Shown here in pieces: positions 27,020 to 43,520 of a stretch of DNA of 64,000 nt. Origin of the DNA: Sphingomonas sp. RIT328 (GTDB taxonomy: Bacteria > Pseudomonadota > Alphaproteobacteria > Sphingomonadales > Sphingomonadaceae); NCBI RefSeq assembly GCF_000632225.1, contig NZ_JFYV01000007.1, positions 40,890 through 104,889 on the forward strand. The letters run 5' to 3'. The notes beneath the pieces were generated by a model that made no database searches, was not told the DNA's origin, and saw nothing but the letters and a program-made list of their open reading frames with translations. Position 1 is the stretch's first letter, and every line of letters begins with the position of its first letter. Both the position numbers and the translations under genes were made by a program.

Positions 27020-27173
27020 GGTGGCCCTCTTCATGCAAGCGTCGGAACGGTGGCAGGGGGTGCGATGCCCCGCCGAACCGCCACGGGGGTCGGTGCCGGT
27101 CGTGCCGGCGACGCCTCTCCCCGCGGTGGCTGAGCCCCCGACGCAACGGCGTCAGCCTGCCGGACCATCGGGC

Positions 27174-27270
27174 AAAAAGAAAGGCCGATCGAAACGACCG
27201 GCCGTAAAGTTTTTAGGAGAGGATGCCTGAAAGGCACGCTCTTTGTGCAGCGCAGCACCGATCCTCGCAA
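27174..27270 (-). ncRNA. Candidate small RNA with intrinsic terminator
   Basis: Reading the minus strand, TTGCAT (27306-27301) and TAACAT (27282-27277), 18 bp apart, could be a promoter. About 97 nt later come a 9-bp stem GGCCGGTCG/CGATCGGCC with loop TTT and a TTTCTTTTT tract, a strong intrinsic terminator. In between, GAGGAT and ATCCTC can pair around two smaller hairpins, leaving a single-stranded CTCTCCTAAAAAC that looks like an anti-Shine-Dalgarno seed. The region has no ORF of its own. It could instead be just the distal terminator of the tgt operon, whose last gene ends 65 bp upstream. Confidence 0.35.
27183..27203. terminator. Rho-independent terminator
   Basis: The stem GGCCGATCG / CGACCGGCC has 9 bp with one A-C mismatch and loop AAA. 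It is followed on the minus strand directly by TTTCTTTTT, and on the plus strand by GTAAAGTTTTT. It would end minus-strand transcripts from the tgt operon or the candidate small RNA. Confidence 0.7.
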
Positions 27271-35747: not shown

Positions 35748-35896
35748 GACCTCTGCGAAAGTTTCGAAACCACCCCGGCGAAGGCCGGGGCCCAGTTGGG
35801 AGGCCTTGTAACTGATTGCACAGCTTCACCAAACTGGACCCCGGCCTACGCCGGGGTGGTACGTGAGCACATCAGGTTGCTACTTTCGCAGAGGTC
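35748..35896. repeat. REP doublet nested in 14-bp terminal inverted repeats
   Basis: GACCTCTGCGAAAG (35748-35761) and CTTTCGCAGAGGTC (35883-35896) are perfect inverted repeats bounding a 149-bp element. Inside lies a REP doublet of the 12.3-kb family, with CACCCCGGCGAAGGCCGGGG at 35771 and CCCCGGCCTACGCCGGGGTG ending near 35858. CCCGCCTGCGCG is present directly outside both ends (35735-35746 and 35896-35907). The layout resembles a small non-autonomous mobile element. Confidence 0.6.
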
Positions 35897-36257
35897 CCGC
35901 CTGCGCGGAAATACTGCGTCACGTGGCAAGCAGATCAGCCTCCAGAACCACCTTGCCCATGCAGACGCTCGGATATGTCGAACGGTCAAATGACCTCGAC
36001 ACAGCTCCCGCCCCTGTCAAACCGCAGACGACCGCAGCGAGTCCGGCTCACCGCAAGGCCTCGCAGCGATCGAGAGCACACCCCCCGCCGTTCCCGACCA
36101 TAGATCTCTGCGTCCTCTGCGCCTCTGCGCGAACCCGGCACCAGTCGCCGGCCGGACAAATCCCACTGACGAACCCAGCCCAAATGGACCGGGCGGGCCG
36201 TATAGCTTTGAGCCAAAACACAAAATGCCACCCGCTGTCCTACGCGACCGGCCTTTG

Positions 36258-36374
36258 CTAGCGGCACGGGCGCAAGAGTCGCTCCTTCTCATTGTCGAAC
36301 AAACGGAAACGATCGGCCCGGATCGTTTCGATCAAGGTGTCCATCTTGTCCATGTTGCCCCATTCCGGCCACAT
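36258..36374 (-). CDS. Duplicated small ORF, copy A (38 aa) or structured RNA
   Basis: The frame starts ATG TGG CCG and ends CGC TAG. A stop codon (TAA) immediately precedes the ATG, as TGA does in copy B, so the frame limits are the same in both. The product begins MWPEWGNMDKMDTLIETIRA and ends NEKERLLRPCR. Copy B differs at 5 of 117 bases (three residues: M-L, D-N, A-P). A perfect hairpin GAAACGATC-6 nt-GATCGTTTC lies inside, and two of the five changes fall in its loop. There is no clear Shine-Dalgarno. The opposite strand is also open here, so coding is unproven. No family recognised. Confidence 0.3.
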   Translation of the reverse strand: MWPEWGNMDKMDTLIETIRADRFRLFDNEKERLLRPCR

Positions 36375-36552
36375 TTAGGCCTCCGCCGTCGCTCTTCCCG
36401 GGGGCGGCGATGCTTCACCGTGCAAGGGTTTCGACCAACAATGGCTGGACCGGACGCCGCAGCATGCGGTCGCGTGATCAACCACCCCGTCATGCCGGAG
36501 CGATAACGGCACAAGGCACTACGCAACGCGACCACCGTGCCACATGGAAAAT

Positions 36553-36578
36553 GGGCCGCCCGGTCGCCCGGACGGCCC
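36553..36578 (-). terminator. Intrinsic terminator within repeat copy A
   Basis: On the minus strand GGGCCGTCC-loop-GGGCGGCCC forms a 9-bp stem (one G-T pair) followed by ATTTTCC. The same hairpin ends the glsB transcript at 43037-43066. Confidence 0.6.
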
Positions 36579-36665
36579 TGTCTCCACGTGGCATCAGCGA
36601 CGCCATACCGCCACGCCGATCGCTCCCGGGTCCCCCGGGCACTACCCGGAAGGCGCAAACGCAAA

Positions 36666-36693
36666 CGGGCCGGACTGTTGCCAGCCCGGCCCG
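36666..36693 (-). terminator. Terminator of clpA
   Basis: CGGGCCGG and CCGGCCCG form a perfect 8-bp stem, followed on the minus strand by TTTGCGTTTGCG, 21 bp after the clpA stop. The imperfect T-tract suggests moderate efficiency; a second hairpin follows at 36553-36578. Confidence 0.65.
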
Positions 36694-36714
36694 CTGCCAT
36701 TCAAACCCGACGCC

Positions 36715-39030
36715 TTACTTCGCGTCGACGGGCTCCGCCTTGCCCTTCTTCTTCGGCTTCTTCGGCGCGGCGGGTTCGATCGCGAAGGACAATGTGCCGT
36801 CCTTCATCCGCACCGTGACCTCGCCGCCATGGACGAGCTTGCCGAACAGCAGTTCCTCGGCGAGCGGCTGCTTGATCTTCTCCTGGATCAGGCGACCCAT
36901 CGGACGCGCACCATAGAGCTTGTCATAGCCCTTTTCGGTCAGCCAGCTCTTGGCGGCATCGTCCAGGTTGATGTGGACGTTGCGGTCGGCGAGCTGGAGT
37001 TCGAGCTGGAGGATGAACTTGTCGACGACCCGCGCGACCACCTCGGTCGGCAGATAGCCGAACGGCACGATCGCATCGAGGCGGTTGCGGAACTCCGGCG
37101 TGAACATCTTCTGCACCGCCTGCTCGTCCTCGCCCTCACGGGTGAGATTGCCAAAGCCGACCGTCTCACGCGCCATGTCGGACGCGCCGGCATTGGTCGT
37201 CATGATCAGGATGACGTTGCGGAAATCGACCGATTTGCCGTGCTGATCGGTGAGGCGGCCATTGTCCATGACCTGCAACAGGATGTTGAACAGGTCGGGA
37301 TGCGCCTTCTCGATCTCGTCGAGCAGCAGCACGCAATGCGGATTCTGGTCGACCGCATCGGTGAGCAGCCCGCCCTGGTCGAAGCCGACATAGCCGGGAG
37401 GCGCACCGATCAGCCGGCTGACCGAATGGCGCTCCATATATTCGCTCATGTCGAACCGCTGGAGCGGGATGCCGAGGATCGACGCCAGTTGCTTGGCGAC
37501 CTCGGTCTTGCCGACGCCGGTCGGGCCGGTGAACAGATAGTTGCCGATCGGCTTTTCCGGTTCGCGCAGGCCGGCACGGGCGAGCTTGATCGCCGAGGCG
37601 AGCTTCTCGATCGCGGCATTCTGGCCGAAGACGACGCGCTTCAGATCCGTCTCGAGGCTTTCGAGCGCGGCCTTGTCGTCGGTGCTGACCGACTTGGGCG
37701 GAATCCGTGCCATCGTCGCGATCACCGCCTCGATCTCCTTGGCGGTGATCGTCTTCTTGCGCTTGGCGACCGGCACCAGCATCTGCATCGCGCCGACCTC
37801 GTCGATCACGTCGATCGCCTTGTCGGGCAATTTACGGTCGTTGATGTAGCGCGCCGACAGCTCGACCGCCGACTTGATCGCATCCGGCGTATATTTGACC
37901 GAATGATGCTCCTCGAATGCCGAGCGCAGTCCGGCGAGGATCTTGATCGTGTCCTCGATCGTCGGTTCGTTGACGTCGATCTTCTGGAACCGGCGGAGCA
38001 GCGCGCGGTCCTTCTCGAAATGGTTGCGGAATTCCTTGTAGGTGGTCGAGCCGATGCACCGGATCGTGCCGCCCGACAGCGCCGGCTTGAGCAGGTTGGA
38101 CGCGTCCATCGCGCCGCCGCTGGTCGCGCCGGCACCGATCACGGTGTGGATCTCGTCGATGAACAGCACCGCATGCGGCAGCTTTTCCAGCTCGTTGACG
38201 ACCGCCTTCAGCCGCTCCTCGAAATCACCGCGATAGCGGGTGCCGGCGAGCAGCGCGCCCATGTCGAGGCTGTAGATCACCGCCTCGCTGAGCACGTCGG
38301 GCACTTCGCCCTCGACGATCTTGCGGGCGAGGCCTTCCGCGATCGCGGTCTTGCCGACGCCGGGATCGCCGACATAGAGCGGGTTGTTCTTCGACCGGCG
38401 GCACAGGATCTGGATCGTGCGATCCACCTCCGGCCCGCGCCCGATCAGCGGATCGACCTTGCCGATCTTCGCCTTCTCGTTGAGGTCGACGGTGAATTGC
38501 TTGAGTGCGCTTTCCGTCTTGCCCTTCTCCTGTCCCTTGGCCGGCTTGTCTTCGTCGGCACCCTTGGGCGTCGTCGCCTCGGCGGCGCCGCTGCCCTTGC
38601 CGACGCCGTGGCTGATGAAGCTGACCGCATCGAGTCGGCTCATGTCCTGCTGTTGCAGGAAATAGACGGCATAGCTCTCGCGCTCGCTGAACAAAGCGAC
38701 GAGCACGTTGGCGCCGGTCACCTCGTCGCGGCCCGACGACTGGACGTGGAGGATCGCACGCTGGACGACGCGCTGGAAGCCGCTGGTCGGCGAGGGATCG
38801 GTCGCGGCATCGACCTTGAGCGCATCGAGCTCGGTATCGAGATAATGGGCGACGGTGGTCTTGAGGTCGCCGAGCTCGACATGGCACGCCTCCATCACCT
38901 TGGAGGCATGTTCGTCGCCGATCAGCGCGAGCAGCAGATGTTCGAGCGTGGCATATTCGTGCCGACGCGAGGACGCGGCCTCGAGCGCCTTGTGCAGCGT
39001 GGTCTCGAGCGCGGGGGCGAAGGAAGGCAT
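36715..39030 (-). CDS. clpA: ATP-dependent Clp protease ATP-binding subunit ClpA
   Basis: This 771-residue AAA+ unfoldase has an N-terminal double Clp repeat (about 1-145), D1 with Walker A GDPGVGKTA and VLFIDEIHT, and D2 with GPTGVGKTE, VLLLDEIEKAH and a C-terminal D2-small domain ending in a Lys-rich tail. It unfolds substrates and feeds them to ClpP. An acidic/Gly linker (KGSGAAEATTPKGADEDK) separates the N-domain from D1. The adaptor gene clpS, usually directly upstream in proteobacteria, is missing from this position; clpP is not in the window. Confidence 0.96.
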   Translation of the reverse strand: MPSFAPALETTLHKALEAASSRRHEYATLEHLLLALIGDEHASKVMEACHVELGDLKTTVAHYLDTELDALKVDAATDPSPTSGFQRVVQRAILHVQSSGRDEVTGANVLVALFSERESYAVYFLQQQDMSRLDAVSFISHGVGKGSGAAEATTPKGADEDKPAKGQEKGKTESALKQFTVDLNEKAKIGKVDPLIGRGPEVDRTIQILCRRSKNNPLYVGDPGVGKTAIAEGLARKIVEGEVPDVLSEAVIYSLDMGALLAGTRYRGDFEERLKAVVNELEKLPHAVLFIDEIHTVIGAGATSGGAMDASNLLKPALSGGTIRCIGSTTYKEFRNHFEKDRALLRRFQKIDVNEPTIEDTIKILAGLRSAFEEHHSVKYTPDAIKSAVELSARYINDRKLPDKAIDVIDEVGAMQMLVPVAKRKKTITAKEIEAVIATMARIPPKSVSTDDKAALESLETDLKRVVFGQNAAIEKLASAIKLARAGLREPEKPIGNYLFTGPTGVGKTEVAKQLASILGIPLQRFDMSEYMERHSVSRLIGAPPGYVGFDQGGLLTDAVDQNPHCVLLLDEIEKAHPDLFNILLQVMDNGRLTDQHGKSVDFRNVILIMTTNAGASDMARETVGFGNLTREGEDEQAVQKMFTPEFRNRLDAIVPFGYLPTEVVARVVDKFILQLELQLADRNVHINLDDAAKSWLTEKGYDKLYGARPMGRLIQEKIKQPLAEELLFGKLVHGGEVTVRMKDGTLSFAIEPAAPKKPKKKGKAEPVDAK

Positions 39031-39164
39031 TCAGATTACTCCAGTCGGGCCGCGGTGGGTCGCCGCGCCCTTTCCCATCATGTCGGTATCGCGGACGCTC
39101 GCATCAAGCACTTGACGTCGCGTCGTCGGCATCGGCGAACCGGCCCGGGCGGCGCGACGGCCGG

Positions 39165-39359
39165 TCATCGCCTGAACAGCGCGTCCGCGCTGGCGCGATG
39201 ATCGACCGATCGGTCGCGGGCGAGCCGGGTGCGCCGGATCTCCGCCTCCAGCGTGACGATCCGGGCATCGAGCTCGGCGATCGACAGCGGGTCGAGGTCC
39301 TGCCGCAGCAGCTCGGTCAATGCGTCGTTGGGACGCGACGGGGCGTCGTCCGATTCCAT
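39165..39359 (-). CDS. DUF1192 family small protein
   Basis: This 64-residue protein has the DUF1192 pattern LDPLSIAELDARIVTLEAEIRRTR, a short coiled coil of unknown function conserved in alphaproteobacteria. It is commonly found beside a PIG3-type quinone oxidoreductase gene, as here (divergent). Soluble, without a signal peptide. Confidence 0.85.
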   Translation of the reverse strand: MESDDAPSRPNDALTELLRQDLDPLSIAELDARIVTLEAEIRRTRLARDRSVDHRASADALFRR

Positions 39360-39449
39360 CGCTGCCTAACGTTGACCCCCGCCCGCACGATGTCAATAAG
39401 GCTGGACGGCGGCGTACCCCGCCCGCGGATCGACGGACAGGAACAGCGG

Positions 39450-40448
39450 ATGAGCGAAGTGCCCGAGACGATGCAGGCGATCGACCCGGAGGCGCATGGC
39501 GGGCCGGAGGTGTTGCGGCTGGTCGAGCGACCGGTGCCGCGCCCGGCGGCGGGCGAGGTGCTGATCCGCATCGCCGCGGCCGGGGTCAACCGGCCCGACG
39601 TGTTGCAGCGCAAGGGCAATTACCCGCCGCCGCCGGGCGCACCGTCGATCCTGGGGCTGGAGATCGCCGGCACGGTGGCGGCGGTCGGGCCGGATGTCGA
39701 CCCGGCGCTGCTCGGCCAGCGGGTCTGCGCGCTGCTCGCCGGCGGCGGCTATGCCGAATATGCCGTCGCGCCCGCCGGCCAGTGCCTGCCGGTGCCCGAC
39801 GGGCTGGAGATGGTCGAGGCGGCGGCGATCCCCGAGACGCTGTTCACCGTCTGGACCAATTTGTTCGAACGCGCCTTCGCCACCGAGGGCGACAGCGTGC
39901 TGCTTCACGGCGGGACCAGCGGCATCGGCACGATGGCGATCGCGCTCGCCAATCTGTTCGGGCTGACGATCATCGTCACCGCCGGGTCGGACGCCAAATG
40001 CGCCCGCGCGCTCGAGCTCGGCGCGACGCATGCGATCAACTACCGGACCGAGGATTTCGTCGAGCGGGTCAAGGCGATCACCGGCGGCAAGGGCGTCACC
40101 GCGGTGATCGACATGGTCGGCGGCGATTACGTGCCGCGCAACCTCCAGTGCCTCGCCGATGACGGCCGCCACGTCTCGATCGCGGTGCAGGGCGGCGCGC
40201 AGGCGACCGTGCCGCTGTTCGAGATCATGCGCCGCCGCCTGACGCTGACCGGGTCGACGCTGCGCCCGCGCGACACCGCGTTCAAGACGCTGGTCGCCGA
40301 CGAGATCGGCCGTACCGTCTGGCCACATGTCGAGGCCGGGCGGCTGCGCCCGATCATCGACCGCACCTTCCCGCTCGCCGACGCCGCCGCCGCGCATGCG
40401 CGGATGGAGGAGGGCGACCATGTCGGCAAGATCGTGCTGACGGTATGA
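39450..40448 (+). CDS. NAD(P)H-quinone oxidoreductase, zinc-type ADH superfamily (PIG3-like)
   Basis: I chose ATG 39450, where MSEVPETMQAIDPEAHGGPEVL begins the family sequence; upstream frame is non-homologous. The 332-residue medium-chain reductase has GVNRPDVLQRKGNYPPPPGAPSILGLEIAG, the NADPH-binding HGGTSGIGTMA in place of AxGGxG, and DMVGGDYVPRNL. It lacks structural zinc cysteines, as quinone oxidoreductases do. It reduces quinones with NADPH. Divergent from the DUF1192 gene. Confidence 0.93.
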   Translation: MSEVPETMQAIDPEAHGGPEVLRLVERPVPRPAAGEVLIRIAAAGVNRPDVLQRKGNYPPPPGAPSILGLEIAGTVAAVGPDVDPALLGQRVCALLAGGGYAEYAVAPAGQCLPVPDGLEMVEAAAIPETLFTVWTNLFERAFATEGDSVLLHGGTSGIGTMAIALANLFGLTIIVTAGSDAKCARALELGATHAINYRTEDFVERVKAITGGKGVTAVIDMVGGDYVPRNLQCLADDGRHVSIAVQGGAQATVPLFEIMRRRLTLTGSTLRPRDTAFKTLVADEIGRTVWPHVEAGRLRPIIDRTFPLADAAAAHARMEEGDHVGKIVLTV

Positions 40449-40455
40449 GCGGCGC

Positions 40456-40710
40456 CTAGCGCCCGCGGTTGCGGGTCATCGGGTCGGGCTTGGCGGGCTT
40501 GACCCAGCCGTCGGGGGGCACGACGCGCGACTGGCTGGTGCCGAGGCCCATCGCGCCGGGGCGTTGCCGATCGAGGCCGGTCGGGTCGGCATCCTCGCCG
40601 CCGGCGCGCAGCAGGCTGATCCGGTCACGCAACCGACCCGCGGTCTCGAAGTCGAGCGCCGCCGCGGCGGCCTCCATCTCCAGCCGGAGTGCCTCGATCG
40701 AGACGCTCAC
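40456..40710 (-). CDS. UvrB/UvrC (UVR) motif protein
   Basis: This 84-residue protein has one UVR motif at its N-terminus ([26 protein letters not shown]), the helical hairpin used by UvrB and UvrC to contact each other. The rest is a low-complexity tail with a [16 protein letters not shown] ending. It overlaps the mnmA stop by 4 bp and is co-translated with it. Function unknown; the motif is also used by McsA-type regulators. Confidence 0.8.
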
Positions 40711-41822
40711 GCCGCGACCGCGGGCAGCGCCGCAGGCTCGGTCGCGGTGATCCAGCCGCCGCCGAGCACGCGTTCGCCGGCGTAGAGCACCGCCGCCTGA
40801 CCGGGGGCGACGCCATATTCGGGCGCGGCGAAGCGCAACCGGTCGCCGTCGAGCCGCGCCGGCACCGGCTTGGCCATCGAGCGGACCTTGGCGGTGATCG
40901 GCCCGTCATAGTCGCCGCCAAGCCAGTTGAGCCCGCTGATCGCCGCCGCCGACACCGCGAGCGCGGCGCGCGGGCCGACCACGACCTGTCGCGTCGCCGC
41001 ATCGACGCGAACGACGTAGAGCGGTTCGGGCGAGCCGCCGATCTCCAGCCCGCGGCGCTGGCCGACGGTGAAATGGATGATGCCGCGATGCGTGCCGAGC
41101 CTGCGACCGGCGAGATCGACGATATCGCCCGCAGTGTCCGCCTCGGGGCGCAGCTTGCGGACGAGGCCGGCATAATCGCCGTCGGGGACGAAGCAGATAT
41201 CCTGGCTGTCGGGCTTGGCGGCGACGCCGAGGCCGAGGTCGGCGGCGATCGCGCGCACCCGCGGCTTGGGCAGGCCGCCGAGCGGGAAGCGCAGATAGTC
41301 GAGCTGCGGCTGCGTCGTCGCGAACAGGAAATAGCTCTGGTCGCGCGCCGGATCGGCACCGCGGTGCAGCTCGACCTGCGTGGGCGTGACCAGCCGGCGG
41401 ACGTAATGGCCGGTGGCGAGGCAATCGGCGCCGAGCTCGCGCGCGAGGCTGAGCAGATCGGTGAACTTCGGGCCGGTGTTGCACTGGACGCAGGGGATCG
41501 GCGTCTGCCCGGCGAGATAGGCGTCGGCGAAGGTGTCGACCACCGTCTCGCGGAAGCGCGTCTCGTGGTCGAAGACGTAATGCGCGATACCCAGCCGGTC
41601 GCACACCGCGCGCGCGTCGCGGATGTCGCGGCCGGCGCAGCAGCTGCCGGCGCGGCCCGTCGCCTCCCCGTGATCGTAGAGCTGGAGCGTCACGCCGATC
41701 GTCTCCGCCCCGGTGCGCGCGGCGAGCGCGGCGACGACCGAGCTGTCGACGCCGCCCGACATGGCGACGACGATCCGCTTGCCGGCGAGCGGTTCGCCAA
41801 GCTGGAAATCCACTTCGTTCAT
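40707..41822 (-). CDS. mnmA: tRNA-specific 2-thiouridylase MnmA
   Basis: This 371-residue enzyme thiolates uridine 34 of Lys, Glu and Gln tRNAs. It has the PP-loop SGGVDSS near residue 20, the catalytic nucleophile Cys in [10 protein letters not shown] and the second Cys in [11 protein letters not shown], a C-terminal beta-barrel, and CC in [13 protein letters not shown]. Start and length match the family. It ends in coupling with the UVR-motif gene. Confidence 0.96.
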
Positions 41823-42324
41823 GCCCGCTTCTACTCCGTCCGCCGCGGAACCGCAAAACCGCGCCTGGTTAACATGGGTTCACATAGGTTCGTGCAAAAG
41901 TCTGCGCGGCTTTACCGGGCCTTCATGGCTCGTTGCTAAAAAGGAGACTGGCACAGGCAACGACGAGTGGCACAGGTTGGACCTCAGCTTCCCAGGCTTC
42001 GACAGAAACACGGAGGTGACGAAACTTCCGGGGGATCTGGCGGTGCTGATGGTCGGCATCGCCGCCCGGCAGACGGCGTCTCCGACCGCCGTCGCCCAGG
42101 CACGGTTCGGCCGCATCGGTCACCCGTCGCGCTTGCTGCAACCGCTGGACGGCGCGTTCAACGGCCCAACCGCGGCTCTGCTCGCGCAATGGAGAGAAGG
42201 ACGACCCCGGCCAGAAGGCTGAAAGCCCCGTTAACCCTCGCGTGCAATTCGATCTTCAAGACCGGCCGCTAGGGTTGTGTATCGCGTTTGAGAGGGGGCC
42301 CCCAGCCCCGATCGAGGTTAACTG
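41823..42324. other. Non-coding upstream region of sciP
   Basis: Nothing in these 502 bp is convincingly coding: frames crossing it lack ribosome-binding sites and family features. It holds TTAAC half-sites at about 41869, 42232 and 42318 (the last next to the sciP start), but none forms a full TTAA-N7-TTAA CtrA box. A perfect GGGGGCCCCC lies near 42294. Confidence 0.4.
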
Positions 42325-42624
42325 ATGATCGAGAACCAGAAAATCCGTCCTGCCAAGGTGATCGGCCCGCTCGGCGAATCGCTGACGCTGGATTCGCTGC
42401 CGCCGCCGTCGACGACGCGCTGGGTGGTGCGACGCAAGGCGGAAGTGGTCGCGGCGGTCAACGGCGGCCTGCTCACCGTCGACGAGGTGTGCGCACGCTA
42501 TGGCCTGACGGTCGAGGAATTCGCCAGCTGGCAGCGCGCGATCGACCGGTCGGGCATGCCCGGGCTGCGCGTCACCCGGATTCAGCATTACAAGTCCCTG
42601 TACGAGCGCCAGCAAAAATATTGA
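42325..42624 (+). CDS. sciP: SciP-type DUF1153 cell-cycle regulator
   Basis: This 99-residue helix-turn-helix protein carries the DUF1153 signature: KVIGPLGESLTLDSLPPPSTTRWVVRRKAEVVAAV, then LLTVDEVCARYGLTVEEFASWQRAI and GLRVTRIQHYK. In Caulobacter SciP binds CtrA and blocks activation of CtrA promoters. Its presence supports an alphaproteobacterial host with a CtrA circuit. GAGG precedes the ATG. ctrA is not in the window. Confidence 0.93.
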   Translation: MIENQKIRPAKVIGPLGESLTLDSLPPPSTTRWVVRRKAEVVAAVNGGLLTVDEVCARYGLTVEEFASWQRAIDRSGMPGLRVTRIQHYKSLYERQQKY

Positions 42625-42738
42625 GCGGGGTGGCTTGACGGCCGCGCTTCGTCCGAAAACCGAAACGCGTGCGGAACATTGTTACGGGGTTGAGAGTCTT
42701 TCCCGACGGAGCCCATGGCGGGCGCAACGGAGGGATTT

Positions 42739-42996
42739 ATGGGTATCATTCTTTGGCTCGTCATCGGTGGCGTTATCGGCTGGCTCGCCAGCATCATCAT
42801 GCGCACGGATGCCCAGCAGGGGATTTTCCTCAACATCGTCGTCGGCATCGTCGGTGCCTTCCTCGGTGGCCTGATCATCTCGGGCGGTTCGATCAACAAT
42901 GCGCCGCTCAACATCACCTCGTTCCTGGTGTCGCTGCTCGGCGCTGTGATCCTGCTCGGGATCGTCAACCTCGTGCGTCGTGGTAGCGTTCGCTAA
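42739..42996 (+). CDS. GlsB/YeaQ/YmgE family stress membrane protein
   Basis: ATG 42739 follows ACGGAGGG at good spacing. The 85-residue protein has three membrane helices with the family glycine patterns (LVIGGVIGWLASIIM, NIVVGIVGAFLGGLII, FLVSLLGAVILLGIVNLV). Members are small inner-membrane proteins induced by stress; the molecular role is unknown. A strong terminator follows 40 bp after the stop, inside repeat copy B. Confidence 0.92.
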   Translation: MGIILWLVIGGVIGWLASIIMRTDAQQGIFLNIVVGIVGAFLGGLIISGGSINNAPLNITSFLVSLLGAVILLGIVNLVRRGSVR

Positions 42997-43036
42997 GAGC
43001 GGCGCGGCACGGCGTCGCTGACGCCACGCGAAGACA

Positions 43037-43066
43037 GGGCCGTCCGGGCGACCGGGCGGCCCTTTT
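43037..43066 (+). terminator. Terminator downstream of glsB-like gene
   Basis: GGGCCGTCC (43037-43045) and GGGCGGCCC (43054-43062) form a 9-bp stem with one G-T pair and an 8-nt loop, followed by TTTTC. It is a convincing rho-independent terminator, 40 bp after the stop of the upstream gene, and is duplicated at 36553-36578. Confidence 0.8.
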
Positions 43067-43236
43067 CGTTATGCGGTGCGGCGGTGGCGTTGCGTGGTGC
43101 CGCGGGCCGTCTTCGGTCCGGTATGACGGGGTGGTCGCATGACCGCGAGCTGCTCCGTCCGTTTAGCCCTTCCTTGCCCCGGCTCTCTCGATACCGGGAT
43201 TCGCCGCGGTGCGGCCGGCCGGCGGCGAGTGCCTGA

Positions 43237-43353
43237 ATGTGGCCGGAATGGGGCAACATGGACAAGTTGAACACCTTGATCGAAACGATCCGGCCTGATC
43301 GTTTCCGTTTGTTCGACAATGAGAAGGAGCGACTCTTGCGCCCGTGTCGCTAG
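43237..43353 (+). CDS. Duplicated small ORF, copy B (38 aa) or structured RNA
   Basis: The frame begins ATG TGG CCG directly after TGA and ends CGC TAG. The product begins MWPEWGNMDKLNTLIETIRP and ends NEKERLLRPCR; it is acidic to neutral, soluble and helical in character. The internal hairpin GAAACGATC (43282-43290)/GATCGTTTC (43297-43305) is identical in stem to copy A and differs only in the loop. G+C is lower than in neighbouring genes, with TTG, CGA and CGT codons. Either a small protein gene or an RNA element; I do not recognise it. Confidence 0.3.
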   Translation: MWPEWGNMDKLNTLIETIRPDRFRLFDNEKERLLRPCR

Positions 43354-43520
43354 CAAAGGCCGGTCGTGTAGGACAGCGGGCGACATTCTGGGTTTTGGTA
43401 CAATGCCATACGCTTTACCTCGTCCAATTTTTGGCGGGGCTCGTCAGGTGAGTCCGGCGGTACGGCAACCGGCGACAGGTGCTGGGTTCGCGCAGAGGCG
43501 CAGAGGGCGCAGAGGGATGT

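Follow-up and report, generated by a model that had tools for sequence, protein, structure and literature searches.

We describe an element of the genus Sphingomonas that consists of conserved boxes separated by mostly unrelated spacers. Two copies of it lie in a 64,000-nucleotide stretch of Sphingomonas sp. RIT328 (contig NZ_JFYV01000007.1, positions 40,890 to 104,889 of the forward strand), which we call the window. The element opens with an array of 9-bp direct repeats. This array is nearly uniform within RIT328 and within two other genomes of the genus, G195 and G170, and it differs between species, even behind the orthologous gene yhhQ. (Genomes carry G handles, G000 being RIT328, and element loci carry L handles.) We argue that the element, which is dispersed and intergenic, is probably a docking site for a putative DNA-binding protein, and that it may form a boundary between transcription units at gene ends. 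We put the probability of this reading at about 0.37.

Boxes, spacers and the array

The array (ACATGGACAAGATGGACACC in RIT328) is followed by a 24-bp palindrome, GAAACGATC-N6-GATCGTTTC, an A/T-rich run and the box GATGAGAAAGAGC. After this box there is often TAGC, and then GTGTAGGACAG about 120 nt from the start of the element. Both arms of the palindrome are fixed in sequence, beyond mere pairing. Of our 98 copies, 11 lack an end of the GTAGGACA type and were dropped here; in 41 of the other 87 this end is followed, at a distance of 47-48 nt, by an inverted box of the type TCC[AT]A[CT]. In G195, 12 of 23 copies have a 5' TGTTGGAC that matches the inverted 3' box, and only one of these 12 has the 3' box itself.

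The boxes recur at their places. TAGGACA is found at +85 to +150 in 64/98 copies versus 3/1826 control windows, and A[AC]AGAGC at +55 to +110 in 49/98 copies versus 3/2115 control windows. The left 51-nt core alone found 80 of the 98 copies. Those found by a right-half pattern (CGTTTC..AAAGAGC..GTAGGACAG) were picked by the words of boxes C and E. They are excluded as proof of those boxes, but they do enter the box columns of the identity comparison. In that comparison, with duplicates removed, the array reaches a within-genome identity of 0.86 in RIT328 (14 copies), 0.89 in G195 (24) and 0.91 in G170 (20); the array window was shifted in G123, part of G211 and part of G089, which makes those values too low. 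The spacers and flanks of RIT328, G195 and G170 are mostly unrelated. Their upstream flanks have an identity of 0.30-0.32, and the 12 nt that follow the AAAGAGC box one of 0.28-0.33 (8, 14 and 7 copies). Over 11 genomes the ranges are 0.25-0.41 for the 12 nt behind AAAGAGC, 0.24-0.32 for the upstream flanks and 0.31-0.56 for the 12 nt before GTGTAG.

The place of the AAAGAGC box varies, but the length from the palindrome to GTAGGACAG tends to stay constant. Pooled over 75 distinct copies, all from genomes that supply 4 or more usable ones, the correlation between the two gaps is r = -0.56 (permutation p = 0.0002). G172 has a total length of 67.1 +/- 0.8 though its first gap ranges from 16 to 31, and in RIT328 and G195 the box favours two places about 12 nt apart. 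The correlation is not shown in G089, G170, G211, G123 or G284. Two side observations concern the structure of particular copies. Another palindromic repeat (GTCATTGCGAGCG...CGCTCGCAATGAC) sits inside the 3' half of the element at L105, L106, L103, L093, L112 and L146, in several copies of G170, G121 and G107. A different array type, GGAAGGTTAGGCTAAGGTTAGTCCAATGCG, with an 11-bp period, is identical in five G123 copies (L229-L232 and L247) whose interiors are seemingly unrelated.

The sequence-only reading of the window saw a pair of copies. That picture is too small, since RIT328 holds at least 14. A protein search of this genome gave 13 matches. In a DNA search 14 places stand out by long matches, which rank above those that are short or cover just the palindrome, and a covariance model made from the 51-nt core of 19 copies yields 14 full-length matches. 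The same 14 places head both of the latter searches. The other 9 of 23 model matches are partial; among those listed there are 8 of them, all of which cover the palindrome on the other strand. Since the model scored 23 candidates in each genome, its counts are lower bounds. In G195 there are at least 24 copies, 23 by the core model and one more by the right-half pattern. As regards replication polarity, the strands of the listed G195 and G231 copies look mixed by eye. G231 has a tandem pair of copies about 200 bp apart (L243) whose flanking repeat units have diverged.

The same boxes recur in other genomes. Some core-model match at E <= 0.01 occurs in 58 of 250 same-genus genomes, and many of the matches listed cover the palindrome only. 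Several full-length matches, among those listed, are found in G195, G170, G121, G129, G231 and G089 besides RIT328. The right-half pattern matches 20/295 same-genus genomes, while a reversed control pattern matches none; in the families it finds, the left arm of the palindrome is often absent by eye. The exact left pattern also occurs in the named records Sphingomonas liriopis (3 contigs) and Sphingomonas sp. UBA978.

Shared loci make it possible to compare the array between species. A comparison of flanks, with one matching flank sufficient, gave 21 syntenic groups across genomes; two of them contain the same genome at two loci and have probably been merged from separate groups. Between RIT328 and G195, 9 orthologous loci have 19/198 differences in the array, 1/81 in the left arm of the palindrome and 176/506 in the adjacent 60 nt. 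In 11 other pairs (10 of G121/G170 and one of G107/G121) the array has 35/242 changes, like the adjacent noncoding DNA with 103/656. ATAGACAACATGAACACC is exact in 17/20 G170 copies and in 0/10 of G121. The constraint on the array thus appears to have been lost in G121.

The 3' side of yhhQ was read in 16 genomes and in RIT328. The element is there in RIT328, G195, G284, G129, G231 and G089, and G123 has an array fragment. The array at each of these loci is of the type typical of its genome. The gene purQ converges on the element in these genomes, except that in G195 purQ was not found beside yhhQ. In G008 and G001 the stop codons of yhhQ and purQ are only 8 and 15 bp apart. The other eight loci (G121, G170, G004, G022, G107, G172, G010 and G211) have other DNA there.

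Position at gene ends

From the 98 copies, 6 were dropped for overlapping a gene call and 2 because one neighbour is missing. The strands of the left and right neighbours of the remaining 90 are (+,-) in 57, (-,-) in 24, (+,+) in 7 and (-,+) in 2. The same classes number 22, 79, 49 and 45 among 195 other neighbouring gene pairs. The right-hand gene therefore converges on the element in 81/90 copies. G195 alone has (+,-) in 14/21 against the baseline of 22/195 (p = 3e-9). When the left gene is '+', 47/65 copies begin -11 to +41 nt from its stop codon, and the median over all 65 is +14. When the left gene is '-', 15/27 copies lie 52-69 nt before the gene start. Five G089 loci have a gap between two stop codons that is nearly filled by the element. 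At L077 and L138, which are one orthologous locus, the stop of the converging gene appears by eye to lie inside the right arm of the palindrome, and the element lacks its 3' half.

Because the element tends to have a stop codon (or a divergent start) on one side and a converging gene on the other, we infer, tentatively, a role in boundary formation or termination.

The window copies and their history

Copy A is on the minus strand at 36235..36373, from TGTGGCCGG, a 5' extension of its subfamily, to GTAGGACAG. Its direct-repeat array AACATGGACAAGATGGACACC is at 36336..36356. The palindrome at 36306..36329 is followed by CGTTTGTT, the box AATGAGAAGGAGC (family consensus GATGAGAAAGAGC) lies at 36281..36293 and the box GTAGGACAG (family consensus GTGTAGGACAG) at 36235..36243. 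A degenerate inverted box, GTCCAT, is found at 36184..36189 with the 47-48 nt spacing of other copies, and it was not counted as a match. Copy B is on the plus strand at 43238..43376, again from TGTGGCCGG to GTAGGACAG. It has the array AACATGGACAAGTTGAACACC at 43255..43275, the palindrome at 43282..43305, AATGAGAAGGAGC at 43318..43330, GTAGGACAG at 43368..43376 and the inverted box GTCCAA at 43422..43427, 47 nt after GTAGGACA.

The sequence-only reading had described this pair as two 38-codon frames, and as a description it holds up well. The frames are at 36258-36374 (-) and 43237-43353 (+) with the translations given there, both have 38 codons, and each ATG stands directly behind a stop codon. 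They are identical at 112/117 bases, where about 95% had been estimated. The peptides differ at three residues, one of these codons has two base changes that both fall in the loop, and there is a single synonymous change. The stem GAAACGATC/GATCGTTTC, which is the palindrome, is intact in both. The claim that the core is constrained relative to its flanks is also borne out. The element, taken as AACATGG to GTAGGACAG in 122 aligned columns of the shared segment, has 6/122 differing columns, while the flanks have 90/285 (Fisher p = 3e-10). This flank count omits the copied terminator (0/30) and the 25 columns before the core (2/25); with both it is 92/340. No recognised family had been seen in the core, and there is no match among the described families tested. 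What does not survive is the frame as the conserved unit. Copy A covers most of its frame, and the conserved object extends beyond the frame to GTAGGACAG and, in many copies, on to the further box 47-48 nt later.

The pair also has a history of its own. Copy B lies behind a gene at 42715..43063 (+), terminator included (43036-43063), which we take to be yeaQ/GlsB-like. Copy A lies behind clpA, and a second copy of the yeaQ terminator is found behind clpA's own terminator at 36553..36578 (-). The terminator GGGCCGTCCGGGCGACCGGGCGGCCC or a close form of it stands behind yeaQ in 9/9 relatives read. Since the terminator belongs to yeaQ in the relatives and its second copy heads the segment of copy A, the copying most likely went from the yeaQ side to clpA: the segment 43004-43726 (+) was most likely copied to 35895..36611 (-). 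After this duplication the flanks diverged by 32% and the element by 5%. Out of 14 relatives searched for each gene, 9 were read behind yeaQ and 10 behind clpA, and in none of them was the element seen there. One of two G231 pieces on the clpA side has no readable end, and several relatives have another gene order behind clpA, hence only some of these are true empty sites.

Other repeats are found nearby. An inverted GC-rich pair (CACCCCGGCGAAGGCCGGGG ... CCCCGGCCTACGCCGGGGTGG) at 35768-35864 resembles REP/REPIN sequences, and motifs like GTCACCCCGGACTTG.. adjoin several element loci. The repeat CGCAGAGGCGCAGAGGGCGCAGAG at 43484-43516 has many short matches across the genome and a reverse copy near copy A (about 36108-36138).

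Weighing the explanations

It is conceivable that the element is a non-autonomous mobile element like a miniature inverted-repeat transposable element (MITE). The array would then be the end bound by a lineage-specific transposase, and the shared loci would be old or repeated insertions. This would suit the many intergenic copies, their patchy distribution (20/295 genomes by the 3' pattern), the places without an element behind clpA, behind yeaQ and between yhhQ and purQ in G001 and G008, and the TGT...ACA-like outer motifs of some copies. We nevertheless consider it somewhat unlikely. The copies of one genome are not alike over their whole length; their spacers are mostly near chance identity while the boxes are kept, which is unlike recent copy-and-paste. 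There is no sign of a target duplication, since flank-word sharing is 3.42 versus 3.67 in mismatched pairs for G195, 4.00 versus 3.87 for G089 and 3.73 versus 3.89 for G172 (12, 6 and 11 copies). We noticed no autonomous version in the copies that were fetched. Plasmids and phages have no stretch similar to copy A, and viral contigs have no match to one exact core pattern. The Y1 transposase (PF01797), which would point to membership in the REP/RAYT system, is in 0/10 element-bearing genomes and 1/12 other genomes, with 5/14 control genomes positive; other transposases were not searched for. A mere duplication of a segment without function, with the core kept alike by gene conversion, is much harder to defend. 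The copying from yeaQ to clpA did most likely happen, and conversion of short tracts could account for 5% versus 32%. However, the same boxes are at 12 further loci of RIT328 and in other genomes, and they are constrained at orthologous single loci between species. As a full account it is contradicted, and we regard it as very improbable.

The sequence-only reading left three options, a small protein, a structured RNA or a DNA-level element, and the last of these fits best. As an RNA, the element would be a 3' untranslated region or a small RNA family with the hairpin as its terminator or core. In both window copies the palindrome and T-rich tail have a consensus score like that of a terminator, the palindrome and GTAGGACAG keep their distance despite the sliding box, and the stretch from AAAGAGC to GGACAG has mildly low folding energy (mean z -0.88, 18% below -2, 22 copies). 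The stem, however, shows no covariation. Over its 9 pairs in 94/98 copies, 121 cells are broken, 47 at the pair next to the loop, and 6 hold a compensated double change, although copies with another core length can be misread in this count. The full element does not fold more stably than dinucleotide shuffles, and its mean z of -0.21 is like that of the control, -0.18 (a word filter passed 44 copies as usable, of which 22 were folded). A suspected third hairpin, the second downstream, with a CTTGC loop, seemed compensatory in a few copies, and its positions are inconsistent across 44 copies examined. Rfam has no gathering-level match at the window element and none at the element in 20 further loci; a weak match (E = 1.8) to the other strand, at 36136-36197, covers the 3' box of copy A. 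In the (-,-) setting (24/90) the element is antisense to both neighbours. An RNA is thus unlikely in our view. A sponge for CsrA was considered too and rejected, as CsrA (PF02599) has 0 matches in RIT328 while 3/14 control genomes are positive. The window does contain a suhB/mmgR small RNA (RF00519) above the gathering score at 27168-27242 (-), a separate locus. Least credible of all is a 38-residue protein under selection that was duplicated with its surroundings. Both window frames are open and of equal length, and all 14 RIT328 copies are free of stops over the 17 codons that begin at the AAC of the core. Over all copies, however, a stop occurs within 17 codons in 21/98 and within 33 in 50/98, and spacer lengths vary out of frame. 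Entropy by codon position has no third-position excess in RIT328 and G195 (0.335, 0.168 and 0.227; 37 copies), although the third position is highest in G170 alone (0.278, 0.241 and 0.364).

How does the element compare with known systems? ERIC repeats are about 127 bp long, and our element is likewise dispersed, intergenic, multi-copy and about 100-200 bp in size, as are BOX-like repeats. Such repeats, the pneumococcal BOX, RUP and SPRITE among them, are short, dispersed, mostly intergenic and multi-copy (PMC3049150, PMC10969869), and in the former BOX, RUP and SPRITE are parasitic in the authors' view. The difference from all of these is that the spacers of our element are mostly unrelated and its leading array is species-specific at a shared locus. 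REP elements are described in PMC3733652 as genome-specific and mostly downstream of genes, between unidirectional or converging open reading frames. This likeness of genome-specific repeats at gene ends includes the CGTC-tagged REPs reported for 'S. wittichi'. Our element differs in having a conserved array with distant boxes in place of a GTAG- or CGTC-tagged palindrome of 20-40 bp, and REP-like repeats of another kind adjoin it. Because whole-length similarity and target duplication fail and the Y1 transposase was not found in the 10 element-bearing genomes, we class the element with the interspersed intergenic repeats rather than with MITEs or REPs. Further conceivable kinds would be an integron attC site, in view of the many starts just behind stop codons, a tyrosine-recombinase attP (arm-type repeats with a palindromic core), an ECF-type promoter, a Rho site or a telomere-like templated array. 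Intrinsic terminators between convergent genes share the hairpin and T-rich tail of the window copies, and the place of many copies near stop codons. They do not share the fixed sequence of both arms or the further boxes, and the T run is A-rich by eye in some G089 copies.

We are left with fixed boxes, free spacers, a tendency to fixed length and no helix, and therefore we argue for a DNA site read by a protein. The 9-bp spaced direct repeats would be the main contact of this putative protein. If its specificity drifts between species, the form of the array would follow. Copies would persist where the protein is used (G195, G170 and RIT328) and decay where it is not (G121). At gene ends the element might stop or insulate transcription between neighbours, and the palindrome with the T-rich stretch of many copies could add a weak terminator. 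Transcription factor regulons whose motif shifts between clades, such as that of LexA, are similar in that many dispersed sites change together with the binding protein. The sites of our element differ in being mostly behind stop codons, not in promoters, and in having further fixed boxes.

Several points weigh against the docking site. No protein partner was found among the two proteins searched for, CsrA and the Y1 transposase. G231, G121 and G129 have less uniform arrays (0.64-0.72), and simple co-evolution does not easily change an array in concert at many loci. In several genomes the 12 nt ahead of GTGTAG exceed chance identity (0.44 in G000, 0.56 in G089), box identities are inflated by being measured at places located by the boxes' own words, and the mildly low folding z between AAAGAGC and GGACAG belongs here too. 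The boundary role would follow from position alone. The window copies A and B are far from a stop codon, at 348 and 248 nt. In a further set of 41 copies, 5 of which were dropped for a missing neighbour, the right-hand gene converges in 26/36 and 9 copies lie between (+,+) genes, with the left gene again often close by its stop codon. Finally, the gene calls come from a heuristic on GC content at third codon positions (GC3), and orthologous copies are not independent.

A broader statement can be made, and we hold it to be doubtful. Part of the genus may have, in each genome, about 5-25 gene-end sites whose array is rewritten in concert by species, with many of the loci and the downstream boxes staying. 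The cause would be either a fast-evolving DNA-binding protein that drags its sites along, or an enzyme that copies a genome-specific array into pre-existing sites, which would be templated homogenisation outside known transposition. If the main reading, a docking site and boundary, is right, the genus carries a boundary module at ordinary gene ends for which our literature searches found no description. It would also be a test bed for how many scattered sites evolve jointly with the factor that binds them. There is a caution in it as well: a pair of conserved short frames can be the by-product of a non-coding element.

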